A DNA stretch of 37,559 nt from Terriglobia bacterium (GTDB lineage Bacteria > Acidobacteriota > Terriglobia > UBA7540), in contig JAIQGA010000059.1 in assembly GCA_020072925.1 (NCBI GenBank), positions 1 through 37,559 on the forward strand. The letters are read 5' to 3'. Both the position numbers and the translations under genes were made by a program. Shown one piece after another: positions 3-22,140 of the stretch. How positions within the stretch are numbered: position 1 is the stretch's first letter; every line of letters begins with the position of its first letter. The notes beneath the pieces are model-generated. The model had not been told where the DNA came from. It was given only the letters and a program-made list of their open reading frames with translations, and ran no database searches.

Positions 3-125
3 GCGGCGCGTGGATCGAAACACGACCTCACCTTCGTCAGCGCCGGCCTCGGCCTGCAACACCGTTTCCTGCCACCGCCCCCGGTCGTGGCAGAGGCACC
101 GCCGCCTCCACCTCCGCCACCGCCC
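3..125 (+). pseudogene. Fragment of an outer-membrane beta-barrel protein with Pro-rich linker
   Basis: The plus-strand frame opening at the window edge encodes a stretch ending DLTFVSAGLGLQHRF. It has the alternating hydrophobic/polar pattern of a last barrel strand with a terminal Phe, and is followed at once by a run of about nine prolines. Barrel, then Pro-rich linker, then a periplasmic domain is the order seen in OmpA-family proteins. After about position 125 the frame runs to a stop at 342-344 through what is, on the other strand, the 3' end of the SIR2-partner gene, so the expected C-terminal domain is absent. I read it as a gene fragment cut off at a junction. Only about 15 informative residues support it, so the family is tentative. 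Confidence 0.4.
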
Positions 126-1644
126 CAGGGTTGGCTGCCACCGCCGTCGTCAAGTCCCGACTTAAACCTTCCCGAGTGGAAGCACTCCACTCCCCACTCG
201 GCTCCCATTGGCGCAGGAACGCGACAATCTCCTCAAAACTCATCTGAGAGAGCTCTTGAGCAGTTTTGGGGCTCGTGGGCCCACTCCATGAACTTATCCT
301 ATGCTGAACGAAATCTTTGTTTTCGGGTTCGCCGAGTTGCTTAACCAGTGCCTCGTAAAGAGACTTCCATTGCCCTGTAAGGTAACTCTCTATCGGTAGC
401 AATCTTTCAAGACGCCAACGATTTGAAAGTCTTGTAATGTCCGCCTCGGTCGCCGTCCTACCCAAGAACTTGCATTGTTCTGCCATCTTGCGAGTTGGGC
501 CCATCTCGATCCAGGCATAGATTCTCTCCTGGTTTTCTGACTTCATCTTGCCGAAGTGTTCTTTCAATAGAAGTCTGTACTCGCGATGAAAGTGTGGATC
601 GTCGTACTTCTCCGGTTTTGATAATCGATCTTCGATCATGTCGGCGACCCCCGCCGGGAACATACGAAGAACGTGCAATGCCAAGCGACTAAAGACTAGC
701 CATCTTTGGCCTCTTTCCTCGAGTCCCTCGGCCAGCTCTGCAATTGCGGCGGGATTCACCCTTACTTGTTCCTCTGTTGCGTCCCGTACCGCCGAAACCA
801 GCATCGACTTGAGGTCATCGTCGGTGCTTCGTCCGCGGTCTATTTCAGGCCGCCAAATGTAGGAATAGTCGTACGGGCCCTTATCGTCCTTACCGCTCCG
901 GGACAATTCAACCGCTGTTCTGAGGAGTTCACAGAGCATCCAGAGCGCTTTTTCCCCGGTTGCTGCGACGAGGTCTGGAATGTTTTTTTCCAGCACTTGC
1001 CCATACTCCCATAAATCGAAGCGCGGCCGTGGCTGGGGGAGGGAGAGTTCCGGCATTTTTTCGCCGAATTCCCGCTCCCTTTCGAATGCCCTCGGGTCTG
1101 GCAATACTGCCAGAAGAATCCTTGCCAGGTCCAGGGCGACTCTCCCCTGCCCGCCTTTTGCAAGATGGGAAATGAGAGCTCCCAGTTTCACCGGGAGAAG
1201 CATATAAAGCGCTTCTCGACGCTCGATCCAAGCAATTTCGGTTTTCGCCCACTCGGCAGCAAGCTCTGCGGGCATCCCGAGCGTGGCTTCCACTAGATCC
1301 ACATGGACAATTTCGTTGTCAGTTTCAGGAATCCCGAGAATGACCTCCAATACCAGTGCCGGGCTACCCTTGGCGACGCGGGCCAGATAACGGGACTGCG
1401 GCCAAGGAGGGAAGGCAAAGGTCCCCTTTGAAACGTCACGGACCAAGCTTGGAGGTTTGGTGAAGAAGCCCCTCGACCGAAGCGGGCTGATCCAGTTCGG
1501 ATTGTCTAGTCTGTCGAAGCAGTATTGCTCCGTCGCTGGGTCTCGTAGTAGCCCCAATAGTCGCAGGGAATTTTCGTCGGAGGGACCTGAGCCGAGTACT
1601 TCGTCCACTTGGCGAAGAACTTCAAAGAACTTTGACCCGCACAT
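37..1644 (-). CDS. Unknown helical partner protein of the SIR2 gene, 3' end truncated or chimeric
   Basis: The start is the ATG at 1644, four bases after the SIR2 stop and behind GGAG; an in-frame start at 1692 would overlap SIR2. The product is about 535 residues, mostly helical and soluble, with no signal peptide or membrane segment. I cannot assign a domain. Its N-terminal part has a distinctive aromatic and Pro-rich block (FDRLDNPNW, then RGFFTKPP, then FPPWPQSRYLARVAKG at about residues 42-90). From memory, and not checked, such a block occurs in long proteins encoded next to SIR2-type genes. The last 25-30 codons are Val/Ala/Pro/Gly-rich because they are the antisense of the proline-coding run at 87-130, so the natural C-terminus is probably missing. 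Tight spacing suggests co-translation with the SIR2 gene. Function could be phage sensing or scaffolding, by analogy only. Confidence 0.7.
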   Translation of the reverse strand: MCGSKFFEVLRQVDEVLGSGPSDENSLRLLGLLRDPATEQYCFDRLDNPNWISPLRSRGFFTKPPSLVRDVSKGTFAFPPWPQSRYLARVAKGSPALVLEVILGIPETDNEIVHVDLVEATLGMPAELAAEWAKTEIAWIERREALYMLLPVKLGALISHLAKGGQGRVALDLARILLAVLPDPRAFEREREFGEKMPELSLPQPRPRFDLWEYGQVLEKNIPDLVAATGEKALWMLCELLRTAVELSRSGKDDKGPYDYSYIWRPEIDRGRSTDDDLKSMLVSAVRDATEEQVRVNPAAIAELAEGLEERGQRWLVFSRLALHVLRMFPAGVADMIEDRLSKPEKYDDPHFHREYRLLLKEHFGKMKSENQERIYAWIEMGPTRKMAEQCKFLGRTATEADITRLSNRWRLERLLPIESYLTGQWKSLYEALVKQLGEPENKDFVQHRISSWSGPTSPKTAQELSQMSFEEIVAFLRQWEPSGEWSASTREGLSRDLTTAVAANPGAVAEVEAAVPLPRPGAVAGNGVAGRGRR

Positions 1645-1648
1645 GACT

Positions 1649-2575
1649 TTATCTCCGGTCTTTCTCTCCCTCGATATCAAAGCCACTTGCAAAGGGAGAA
1701 GGCCGCTCCTTTAGATCTCCTTCCTCAATCCATTGGAGGAGCACTTCTTCGAGGCCCCGAAAATCATCGCCTTTCTTATCGTATAGCACGGGAGTCACTT
1801 CTAGTGACCGAAATCCGTCTATAGCTGCCTCCGCTAATGCCCGCTCTTCAGATGAGGAATATTCTTTAACGTCCCACAATATGAAACGTCTGACCCTCCG
1901 GGCGGCTTCCTGCCGTCCCCGAGAGGAGATCCTCCTTCGCTGCTCAACACTTCCTCTCAATAGTGCTGCGATATTCTCCTCTTTGGGATTGAAAGCCACG
2001 AACAAGACGTTCTCATAGGTGAAAGTGTTCAGAAGGAATCCCGGCAGGAGGCTTCTTTGGTACGCCTCTTCAAATGACCTCGCGCCGAACACGAGTCTTT
2101 CCACGTCAAAGTTGTTGTCCTCTGGGTCGAAGTAGCCGTGCAGATAGTAGAGGGCCTTTGAGATTCCGGTGCTACTAAGGGGAAGATCCGGGTATATGAA
2201 GCATTTCTCGTAATGTTCACGCCGCGAGTGCTGGTGGACCCAAGGGTCGAAATTCGTCGTCAATAGAGCTTTGAATGGCAGCCGATGCAGATAAGGCAGG
2301 GCTGGCCGCAGGCGGGCGATGTGTCTTGGGAAGATCGTCCGCAGGGCACCGTTGAGGCGTTCCTTGCCGTTGTCGATACATCTGTCTACCACCTGTGCCT
2401 TCGAGAGGCCACCATTTGCATCTACGTCGCAGTTCGTTGCCAATTCATCTACAAGGACATCCCATTCACACCCGGGCGGAATTGAAATGCCTGCGCCCAC
2501 GAAGGCGACGCATTGGCCGCCGTAAATAAGCGCCTTGAGGTCTGCCTCGTCCGTTGTTGACTCGGTAAGGACCAT
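1649..2575 (-). CDS. SIR2-like NAD-binding protein, candidate defence effector
   Basis: This 308-residue cytoplasmic protein carries the landmarks of the divergent SIR2 (SIR2_2-like) fold. A nucleotide-binding loop FVGAGISIP lies at residues 25-33, TTNFD at 106-110 holds the Asn that defence sirtuins use for NAD hydrolysis, and YLHG at 144-147 holds the catalytic-type His. A late strand/helix, FVAFNPKEENIAALL (about 192-206), occupies the place where the family usually has a Gly/Asp-rich segment. The four-Cys zinc ribbon of deacetylase sirtuins is absent. In known systems (Thoeris ThsA, DSR1/DSR2, SIR2-HerA, SIR2-Argonaute) such domains destroy NAD after phage detection. Here the gene lies upstream of an unknown helical protein with a 4-base gap, which suggests an effector and sensor pair. 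The fold is secure; the defence role is inferred. Confidence 0.85.
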   Translation of the reverse strand: MVLTESTTDEADLKALIYGGQCVAFVGAGISIPPGCEWDVLVDELATNCDVDANGGLSKAQVVDRCIDNGKERLNGALRTIFPRHIARLRPALPYLHRLPFKALLTTNFDPWVHQHSRREHYEKCFIYPDLPLSSTGISKALYYLHGYFDPEDNNFDVERLVFGARSFEEAYQRSLLPGFLLNTFTYENVLFVAFNPKEENIAALLRGSVEQRRRISSRGRQEAARRVRRFILWDVKEYSSSEERALAEAAIDGFRSLEVTPVLYDKKGDDFRGLEEVLLQWIEEGDLKERPSPFASGFDIEGEKDRR

Positions 2576-2822: not shown

Positions 2823-2946
2823 GTCACAGCAGGTGACATAAGGGGATTGTAGATCTTTGCTCCCGTGAGGTTGGCGACCTGGGGACGCGTGTCCATTCAC
2901 ATTCGTGGAGTGTTCGCAGGCGGGTCGTGGCATAATGCTAAATTCC

Positions 2947-3157
2947 AGTAGGTAGTAGGTGGTAGGTAGTAGGTAGGAAAGGGAAAAGCGGAAGTAGGAA
3001 GTCGGGAGAAGAAAAGCGGGAGTCGGAAGTCGGGAGTCGCAAGAAGAAGACGAAAATCAACAATCAGCATTCGGCACTCAGCAGTCGTCAATCCAATATG
3101 GCGGAGCGCAGCCCCAACTACCGAGTGCCCGCTGCCGACGGCTGACGGCTGACCGCT
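2947..3157. repeat. Train of period-7 (heptad) repeat arrays with changing unit
   Basis: Four successive blocks share a 7-base period but differ in unit. The first is AGTAGGT-type (2947-2977). The second is GGAAGTC/GGGAGTC-type (about 2991-3040). The third is ATCAGCA-type (about 3055-3093). The fourth is GACGGCT-type (about 3137-3157). The same period recurs at 3820-3882, inside tgt, and at 22070-22090. Spacers are absent, so this is not a CRISPR array. Confidence 0.8.
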
Positions 3158-3169
3158 AAGGAGTGAAGC

Positions 3170-3808
3170 TTGGTTTGTCCCATCTGTCAAAAGCGCAAGG
3201 CGAAGCGGTACTGTCCGGCGCGGGTGGAGAACATCTGCTCGGTGTGCTGCGGCACCGAGCGCGAAGTGAGCATTGATTGCCCCTCGGATTGTGCCTATCT
3301 GGTCGCCAGCCGGGAATACGACGACGAGCGGCGAGTGATCGATTGGAAAAAGGTGCCGTTTCCGGAGGTGCGAATCCCCGGGCGCTTCGCCCACGACCAC
3401 GGGGAATTGGTGGCGGCGCTGACCCACACCCTTCTGCTTTTTGCGCGGGACCACCGGGCGCTGGTGGACTCCGACGCGGTGGCCGTCCTCCAGACGCTGG
3501 CCGAGACCTATCGCACGCTTTCGAGCGGGCTCTACTACGAGCGGCCTCCGGATTACGCGCTGCAGCGGGAACTTTATGAGGCGCTGAAGGCGGCGCTGGA
3601 GGAATTCAAGAAACGCGAACAGAATAAAGTCGGCGTGACCAGCACTCGGGAAAGCGAGATTCGAGACGCGCTCGTCCTGCTTACCCAGGTCGGCGCCACG
3701 CGCACCAACGGTCGCCCCAAAGGCCGCGCCTTCCTCGATTTCCTGAGATCGCATTTTCTCCCCGAAGAAATCGGCAAGCCGGAGTCGAAGATCATTCTCG
3801 CACCCTGA
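3170..3808 (+). CDS. Cys-rich zinc-ribbon-like protein of unknown function
   Basis: This 212-residue protein starts at TTG 3170, seven bases after a clear AAGGAG. The N-terminus has paired cysteines (CPIC at 3-6, C15, then CSVCCG at about 23-28, and C39, C43), typical of a small zinc-binding treble-clef or ribbon. The rest is helical and charged, with a mid-region DYALQRELYEALKAALEEF and no membrane segment. I do not recognise the family. It sits upstream of dnaG, where many bacteria have rpsU, but about 480 bases of repeat-rich sequence separate the two, so operon membership is doubtful. A role in nucleic-acid or protein binding is possible from the Cys motif alone. Confidence 0.75.
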   Translation: MVCPICQKRKAKRYCPARVENICSVCCGTEREVSIDCPSDCAYLVASREYDDERRVIDWKKVPFPEVRIPGRFAHDHGELVAALTHTLLLFARDHRALVDSDAVAVLQTLAETYRTLSSGLYYERPPDYALQRELYEALKAALEEFKKREQNKVGVTSTRESEIRDALVLLTQVGATRTNGRPKGRAFLDFLRSHFLPEEIGKPESKIILAP

Positions 3809-3819
3809 GGCGGGGGGGC

Positions 3820-3882
3820 GAGAGTCGAAAGTCAAGAGTTGAAAGTCGAAAGGTGAGAGTTGAGGGTTGAGGGCTGAGAGGT
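3820..3882. repeat. Nine-unit heptad repeat array, GARAGTY-type
   Basis: Nine consecutive 7-base units (GAGAGTC, GAAAGTC, AAGAGTT, GAAAGTC, GAAAGGT, GAGAGTT, GAGGGTT, GAGGGCT, GAGAGGT) run without interruption, starting 12 bases after the stop codon of the Cys-rich gene. Strand composition is strongly purine-skewed. Confidence 0.85.
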
Positions 3883-4132
3883 CGAGGAGCCTGGGGGTTC
3901 GCTATAGTTGACATTCTTCGCCCTCGGGCGGAAGGGGGCCGCGGCAAAACTGCCCCTGCCGGCTGAAAACCGCTTGGGCCCTGGCCATTTCGCCAGTTTG
4001 CAGCGCGTGGCCAAAAATATTTTCGGTCCTCGCAGTTCGTGTAACCCATTGAAAATAAGACCTATTGCGCGGAGAGATGGACAAAATAGACCTTCCGGAT
4101 GCCCACAAAACCTCAAAATCTGCCCCAGAATT

Positions 4133-10088: not shown

Positions 10089-11399
10089 ATTAAGTTTGAG
10101 ATCATCAAACGCGACCCTGCCACCCGGGCTCGTGCAGGATTGCTGCATACATCCCACGGTGTTGTCGAGACGCCGGTATTCATGCCGGTGGGGACGGCAG
10201 GAACTGTCAAGGGCATGACCCAGGAGATGCTCGAAAGCCTGGGTGCCCAAATCCTTCTGGCCAACACCTATCACCTCTATCTCCGTCCAGGACACGAAAT
10301 CATTCGCGGCTTTGGAGGCTTGCACCGTTTCATGGCCTGGCCGCACGCGATTCTGACCGACAGTGGCGGCTTTCAGGTAATGAGCCTGAAGGGCCTGGGG
10401 CGCGTCACCGAGGATGGGGTATGGTTTCGCTCGCACTTGGACGGGTCTTCACATTTCCTCTCGCCCGAGCGGGCCGTGGAGATTCAACTGGCACTCGGCG
10501 CGGACATCATCATGACCCTTGATGAATGCGTGGAATACCCAGCCAGCCACGAAACGCTGCAACGCGCCGTCAAGCTGACGGGTCGCTGGGCGCGGCGGGC
10601 GCGGGACTATTACCTTACAGCAGTGAGTGGGGAGTCGGGTGTAGGGTGTCGGGTGTCGGGTGCAGGGACTCGGGACTCGGGAATCGGGAATCGGGGCCCG
10701 GAAGCTGGCGACAGGGGATCGGGAGTAACGCACGGCAGCGCGGAACGCGCCGAGCCAGGGAGTTCGGATTTCGCTAGTCGAGACTCAAAGTCCGCCCCGT
10801 CTCCCCCGAGTCCCGAGTCCCGAATCCCGAGTCCCGCTCTTTTTGGCATCGTCCAAGGTGGCGTGGACAAGGATCTACGCCGGGAAAGCGCGGAGGAGTT
10901 GGTCGAACTAGGTTTCGAAGGTCACGGGCTGGGTGGGTTCTCGGTGGGGGAGCCTAAGGCGGAGATGTATGACCTGGTCGAACACACCGCCGCCATGCTT
11001 CCTGCTGATCGGCCCCGGTACCTGATGGGCGTGGGAACGCCTGCGGACCTGGTCGAGGGCGTAGCCCGTGGAATCGACATGTTCGATTGCGTGCTGCCGA
11101 CGCGCAATGCCCGCAATGCCTGCGTCTTCACCTCCGAAGGGAGAGTCATTATCAAGAATGCTCGTTACGCCGGGGATGAGTCTCCTCTCGATCCGGCGTG
11201 CGCATGCCCCGTATGCCGACGCTATTCCAGGAGTTACCTCCGGCATCTTTTTGTGGCGGGGGAGATGTTAGGGGCCATTCTGGCCACTCAGCACAACCTG
11301 TACTTTTACCTTGACACGCTGCGCAAAGTCAGGCAGTCTATTTTATCTGGCGAGTTTGTGGATTTGTGTGCAAGGGTACGAGGGACTCTAGCCATTTGA
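10089..11399 (+). CDS. tgt: tRNA-guanine transglycosylase (queuosine), ATT start and repeat-derived insertion
   Basis: Tgt exchanges guanine 34 of GUN-anticodon tRNAs for preQ1, a step in queuosine synthesis. The family N-terminus (KFEIIKRDPATRARAGLLHT) begins directly after an ATT codon at 10089, seven bases downstream of GGAGGG (10076-10081). No ATG, GTG or TTG lies in frame between the preceding stop (10017) and this point, and the next candidate (TTG 10140) would remove 17 conserved residues. Visible motifs are LTDSGGFQVMSL (general acid region), FGIVQGG, the nucleophile region MFDCVLPTRNARN, and the zinc site CACPVC with a downstream His. Residues about 177-249 are a Gly/Ser/Arg-rich insertion made of heptad repeats, lengthening the protein to 436 residues from the usual 370-380. 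tgt-yajC-secDF is a widespread order. Confidence 0.95.
   Translation: MKFEIIKRDPATRARAGLLHTSHGVVETPVFMPVGTAGTVKGMTQEMLESLGAQILLANTYHLYLRPGHEIIRGFGGLHRFMAWPHAILTDSGGFQVMSLKGLGRVTEDGVWFRSHLDGSSHFLSPERAVEIQLALGADIIMTLDECVEYPASHETLQRAVKLTGRWARRARDYYLTAVSGESGVGCRVSGAGTRDSGIGNRGPEAGDRGSGVTHGSAERAEPGSSDFASRDSKSAPSPPSPESRIPSPALFGIVQGGVDKDLRRESAEELVELGFEGHGLGGFSVGEPKAEMYDLVEHTAAMLPADRPRYLMGVGTPADLVEGVARGIDMFDCVLPTRNARNACVFTSEGRVIIKNARYAGDESPLDPACACPVCRRYSRSYLRHLFVAGEMLGAILATQHNLYFYLDTLRKVRQSILSGEFVDLCARVRGTLAI
10617..10835 (+). repeat. Inverted heptad arrays inside the tgt coding frame
   Basis: Nine units of GGGNNTC/GGGTGYA type run from 10630 to 10692. Four complementary units (GAGTCCC-type) run from 10808 to 10835, where conserved tgt sequence resumes. 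The two arms can pair into a GC-rich stem of about 28 bases around a 115-base loop. The whole insertion is 219 bases, 73 codons, so the reading frame is kept although seven is not a multiple of three. Confidence 0.85.
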
Positions 11400-22038: not shown

Positions 22039-22069
22039 TCCCTTCCGGTCCGACAGGCGACCCGATGCT

Positions 22070-22090
22070 GATTGCTGAATGATGAATGAT
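22070..22090. repeat. Short heptad array between rel and the RidA gene
   Basis: Three consecutive 7-base units (GATTGCT, GAATGAT, GAATGAT) lie 31 bases after the rel stop. They are a small member of the period-7 family seen upstream of dnaG and inside tgt. Confidence 0.55.
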
Positions 22091-22140
22091 GACCAGGTCG
22101 TCCCTCCGGTTCGGTACCTGGAGATTCAGGAGAACACAAC

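Follow-up and report, generated by a model that had tools for sequence, protein, structure and literature searches.

Facing arrays of related heptamers around a Cys-rich gene and inside tgt in a Terriglobia genome

The STRR sequences of heterocystous cyanobacteria are tandem heptamer repeats, and one of them reportedly lies inside the RNase P RNA gene (Vioque, 1997). They resemble the arrays described here in also occurring inside a functional gene, but their heptamers are different and their hosts belong to a different phylum. Over-representation of heptamers in many bacterial genomes was found in 2007, without a mechanism, and G-rich heptameric repeats were described with the unit GGGAATC in Xanthomonas and GGGGA(C/T)T in Nostoc (Rehm et al., 2015; PMC4692102). 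Two Xanthomonas genomes show 83% presence of repeats at the same sites (PMC4692102). These convergent heptameric repeats are the closest known kind to ours. The TAACTGA repeats of Beggiatoaceae (PMC4679880) are likewise intergenic heptamer arrays that occur in unrelated phyla, but they use one fixed heptamer, are direct repeats (with one indirect case), and lie mostly just before start codons. Rickettsia palindromic elements (RPE), which are about 150 bp long, form sequence families and encode a conserved peptide (PMC10969869), also place palindromic DNA in frame in unrelated protein genes; in our arrays only heptamer arms recur and no conserved element sequence extends past them. REP/REPIN sequences with their RAYT transposases (PMC3733652, PMC2817692) are many short intergenic palindromes as well. 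They are tagged palindromes of 20-40 bp, whereas the arms here are tandem heptamers with no Y1_Tnp link, although REP-like palindromes share a terminase loop with heptamer hairpins in congeners.

The window is the whole stretch that was analysed, a contig of 37,559 nucleotides (C60). It contains a Cys-rich gene (3170-3808, plus strand) whose product has no Pfam or NCBIfam match and which is flanked by heptamer arrays. The first-pass annotation had reported at least five arrays at 2947-3882, with further members inside tgt and after rel, and all of these are present in the sequence. Upstream of the gene on the plus strand are an AGTAGGT array (2944-2980), an imperfect AGTCGGG array (2983-3044) whose part at 3016-3044 reads as GGGAGTC, and an ANTCRGC array, equivalent to ATCAGCA (3055-3083). 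The GACGGCT array (3125-3161, minus strand) is the convergent partner of the array at 3055-3083, with a unit similarity of 0.59, and stops about 9 bp upstream of the TTG at 3170. The AGTYGAR array (3820-3883, plus strand; GARAGTY part 3837-3883) begins about 12-15 bp past the stop of the Cys-rich gene. Inside tgt (queuine tRNA-ribosyltransferase, 10140-11399, plus strand), the left arm of a hairpin is made of GGGTGTC/GGGAATC heptamers (10622-10702, plus strand) and the right arm of CCCGAGT, the reverse complement of the left-arm type (10801-10839, minus strand). A weak GAATGAT array follows rel (22063-22095, plus strand). A single detector setting, which requires 76% matches at a given lag over 21 bases, finds five arrays in the 950-bp stretch 2941-3890, all of them at lag 7 in a scan of lags 4 to 13; 1000 Markov shuffles give an expectation of 0.003 lag-7 arrays for this stretch. 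The whole window has eight, compared with 0.055 in shuffles. The tgt hairpin folds better as DNA than its shuffles (z -2.97), the stretch 3016-3165 folds no better than its own, and an Rfam search of the window gave no match. At the left end of the window (37-2575, minus strand), two adjoining frames match the model of the anti-phage sirtuin Dsr1 (1263 positions) in separate parts, the first at 591-835 and the second, which also has SIR2_2, at 21-192; they may represent a split or decayed defence gene.

The draft genome comprises 6.50 Mb in 456 contigs, and the genome-wide counts rest on a sample of 0.80 Mb, an eighth of the whole, part of which was picked for repeat matches. In this sample a stricter detector found 53 lag-7 arrays and 3-12 at the other lags except 14 and 21; 4-5 of these 3-12 are runs of N, leaving 0-8 above the N background. 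A looser detector gave 102 arrays at lag 7 and, multiples of 7 excepted, 0-18 at other lags. The part of the sample not selected for repeats has 55 lag-7 arrays in 0.60 Mb, or about 92 per Mb. The autocorrelation called for by the first-pass annotation, applied to the 0.80-Mb sample, thus shows lag 7 exceeding the other periods. Period-8 arrays number 18 in this sample; most belong to one octamer family with inverted arms and a unit close to AATCACCC / GGGTGATT (loci L019, L020, L024, L051, and L064), a family also found inside a terminase-like gene. The strict 7-base period claimed for the region therefore describes the window's arrays and does not extend to every family of the genome. Since one family in the same genome has period 8, a mechanism working universally in 7-base steps, as had been proposed, is not required, and period 7 is typical of most families here without being a law.

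The units of these arrays are related. When each array was rotated and turned to best fit one common profile, the 102 arrays were found to have a common degenerate heptamer, ANTCRRV (T-B-Y-Y-G-A-C when read from the opposite strand). The fit scores 2.50 per array, and permuting the columns within each unit lowers it to 1.71 (sd 0.03). Of the five arrays near the Cys-rich gene, three (GGGAGTC, ATCAGCA, and GARAGTY) match the profile as they stand and one, GACGGCT, matches it on the minus strand apart from a single mismatch; AGTAGGT is the poorest match. The first-pass annotation held that the arrays have a common period and no common sequence; with the common profile so far above the permuted controls this was overstated, and the GACGGCT array represents the ATCAGCA/GGGAGTC type in reverse complement. 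Only 23 of the 102 units contain GGG or CCC, and GGGNATC is the majority unit in none of the 102, with single GGGAATC copies found in tgt. In the genome of a relative (G027), some 30 dispersed copies of an ATTCAAG/ATTCAAA alternation form a 14-mer subfamily. No conserved core or flank was found by BLAST among loci of the own genome, among G027 loci, or between the tgt insert and its genome. The related view that the arrays do not descend from one element is therefore upheld as far as a conserved core between loci is concerned, but it sits poorly with the related units and dispersed subfamilies. A MITE-type element with conserved core or flanks was considered and rejected, as BLAST homology between loci is confined to the arms.

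The main structural feature, missed by the first-pass annotation, is that many arrays have inverted partner arrays of matched units. An inverted partner (at least 16 of 20 positions complementary, within 200 bp) accompanies 40% of arrays, compared with 6% when flanks were swapped between arrays; direct partners accompany 9%, compared with 7% in the control. Neighbouring pairs no more than 250 bp apart number 34; in about half of them the similarity in inverted orientation exceeds the 95th percentile for pairs taken from different contigs, and in few does that in direct orientation. The median distance between inverted arms is 42 bp. Of 45 hairpins, 38 have the G-richer strand of each arm pointing inward (38 vs 7), and orientation by the ANTC motif shows no clear bias (28 vs 16). 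The G-over-C measure was run first, yet after the arms had been seen, and both orientation measures exclude the preselected G027 loci; some measures were picked after the data had been seen, which, like the draft state of the genomes and the one-eighth sample, weakens the claims made here. The arrays are a genome-wide class of short hairpin-like repeats, hundreds per genome, whose arms are tandem degenerate heptamers.

Most arrays lie between genes. Gene calls from a simple self-trained finder place 77 of the 102 in intergenic DNA, with 15% of the DNA being non-coding, in agreement with the intergenic enrichment that the first-pass annotation had proposed to check. Divergent genes flank only 6 of 75 intergenic arrays, compared with 27% of intergenic bases (p 4.5e-5), and many hairpins end no more than 15 bp away from a gene end. 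Protein genes that bear arrays include tgt and the terminase-like gene, both with in-frame insertions, and a DNA_pol_B gene with an open frame. The latter, a family B DNA polymerase gene at L024 962-3367 (minus strand), has two heptad array sites within one open frame.

Units differ between relatives at orthologous sites. The tgt insert (about 10604-10845) is in frame, falls in a loop, and interrupts the TGT profile match, which occurs in two stretches flanking it. Within family f1, the same loop has inverted heptamer arrays in eight genomes (G000, G004, G020, G015, G024, G027, G034, and G010), a short array in G002, and weaker arrays in G008 and G003; in other species it measures 7-34 residues without clear heptamers. 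Units in this loop include GGGGTTC, AGGTGTC, CGAAACT, AGTTCGG, and GGAAGTA. In nine species the best stems of the insert pair 17-21 of 21 positions, compared with a shuffle mean of 12-14, and left arms match the right arms of their own species more closely than those of other species (permutation p 2e-4). The sister species G004 and G020 of genus g5 have a common tgt hairpin with a 21-bp length difference, equal to three heptamers, that includes a 7-bp step. In G000 the arms of the insert match more than 40 places in the genome and the middle part matches none. The Tgt of the window groups with an Acidobacteriota sequence (support 93), and on the tree of Tgt and the Cys-rich protein, a poorly resolved tree of a partial set of 21 species on which gain and loss are undatable, the insert changed at least six times. 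The Cys-rich gene was matched in 36 of the 41 genomes searched, its own counted. Its flanks have CAGGTNN with an ACCTG partner in G002, CAGAAGT with a TTCTGAC partner in G004, and other heptamers in G008, G003, and G010; heptamers are absent from these flanks in the other relatives examined.

A second example is the terminase-like gene of genus g3, which matches Terminase_6N and 6C. In one loop with alignable flanks, G036, G031, and G034 have heptad hairpins of three different units, and G018, G027, and G255 have REP-like palindromes. The homologous loop of G000 (protein identity 47%) contains a hairpin with period 8. The REP-like palindromes are located at L277 1814-1860 and 2323-2390, in L276, and in L278, with more copies nearby in L277 and L276. 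As relatives have hairpins of different units at the same spots, the arrays look like fast-changing DNA that is probably non-essential.

Patterns of this sort are spread very unevenly. In a single family of the same phylum, AGTCRRN arrays are matched 1039 times in G108 and 9 times in G120, and the reversed pattern used as a control is matched 1426 times in G120; being rich in the control pattern and poor in AGTCRRN, G120 uses another heptamer. In 20 kb of each there are 13 and 18 lag-7 arrays, respectively. Sequences L263 (G108) and L264 (G120) come from genomes of about 8.4 Mb with very dense near-perfect heptad arrays, each with its own unit set. Within family f1 the array load grows with genome size (rho 0.58) and does not track the counts of Y1_Tnp, Ku, or RVT_1. 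Three candidate genes were rejected. For Y1_Tnp (RAYT), an array is nearby at only 1 of 10 loci and gene counts do not follow array load, and Ku is absent in 11 of 13 array-rich genomes, so end filling by NHEJ is not required. RVT_1 has no match in 7 of the 13 array-rich genomes of f1, a count from incomplete drafts and the RVT_1 model only. Outside the phylum, Oscillochloris sp. ZM17-4 (L149 7139-7307) has facing heptad arrays of AGGGGAC/AGGCAAT and ACCCTGT, and 0.91 Mb of mixed phyla showed no general lag-7 excess.

The arrays agree with the repeats of Rehm et al. in being tandem heptamers, hundreds per genome, intergenic, near gene ends, and rare between divergent genes, with frequent convergent inverted pairs and no tie to mobile elements or gene function. 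They differ in having many unit types per genome under a looser consensus, most without GGG, in the period-8 sister family, in arms that are matched locus by locus against controls, and in unit types that differ at orthologous sites. Since they lack the GGGNATC/GGGGAYT unit with its intact G-tract, they are a variant and no plain member of that class. What is new is the broad unit repertoire under one loose consensus, the arm matching tested against controls, and the unit change at orthologous sites.

We consider the chances about even that the arrays arise and change by slippage together with hairpin template switching at tolerated sites, a process that we infer from the patterns above. Ordinary replication errors would create and alter arrays. 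Slippage by whole units would extend an array and homogenise it. In a folded hairpin, each arm could serve the other as a template; such switching, or switching to an array elsewhere in the genome, would keep the arms complementary and swap unit types. Selection would purge most arrays from coding DNA and leave them between co-directional genes, at gene ends, and, in frame, in the few protein loops that tolerate them, the Tgt loop being one. The arrays would serve no host function. A narrower version, a hairpin element with no fixed sequence, is doubtful: at a given site the architecture of two facing matched arms may persist while intramolecular template switching exchanges the unit of both arms at once, on the time scale of a genus and even within the tgt coding region. 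Slippage alone predicts neither period 7 with almost none at 5, 6, 9, and 10 nor a consensus across loci, and this counts against the combined process. Pure slippage at unrelated seeds, giving units without a common origin, is very unlikely; the many unit types and the confinement of homology to the tandem part agree with it, but a common consensus far above the permuted controls, the matched inverted arms, and the dispersed subfamilies do not. A templated polymerase, telomerase-like or another reverse transcriptase, that adds heptamers in 7-base steps is less probable still and close to dismissed. The strong period 7 would suit such an enzyme, and the inward G-richer strand resembles head-to-head telomere arrays. 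However, the period-8 family shares the genome, a genome with so many unit types would require a large number of templates, and the lack of an RVT_1 match in over half of the array-rich genomes makes the reverse-transcriptase type raised by the first-pass annotation unlikely.

The main rival to slippage with template switching is mobilisation in trans, in which some transposase, perhaps one now lost, would move heptad hairpins as REP/REPIN or MITE-like palindromic elements and each array pair would mark an insertion. Dispersed subfamilies, in-frame insertions, convergent arms, and the occupation of one permissive loop by different hairpins in congeners, REP-like palindromes among them, speak for it. 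The dispersed 14-mer copies in G027 fit mobilisation better, and so does a single loop that is occupied, depending on the species, by heptad hairpins, an octad hairpin (G000), or REP-like palindromes. We nevertheless regard it as a tentative explanation, on the unlikely side, as homology between loci ends at the arms and Y1_Tnp shows no association with the arrays in number or position. A selected role of the hairpins, as transcription terminators, mRNA 3'-end structures, G-quadruplexes, or protein sites, is unlikely. It would account for arrays near gene ends, their depletion between divergent genes, and the inward G-richer strand, and more transcript starts and stops occur at such repeats in Xanthomonas (Rehm et al., PMC4692102). 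Arrays inside tgt, the polymerase gene, and the terminase-like gene are hard to reconcile with such a role, as are the many relatives without arrays at orthologous sites, the free change of units, the scarcity of GGG, and the fold of the array site 3016-3165, which is no better than that of shuffles.

Facing arms of different heptamers occupy orthologous sites, even in a conserved housekeeping gene, and this turns the mechanism of heptamer repeats into a testable question: whether both arms change together in place or a new hairpin is inserted each time. In this lineage, repeat-derived loops occur in Tgt and in other proteins, and such loops may be meaningless at the protein level.
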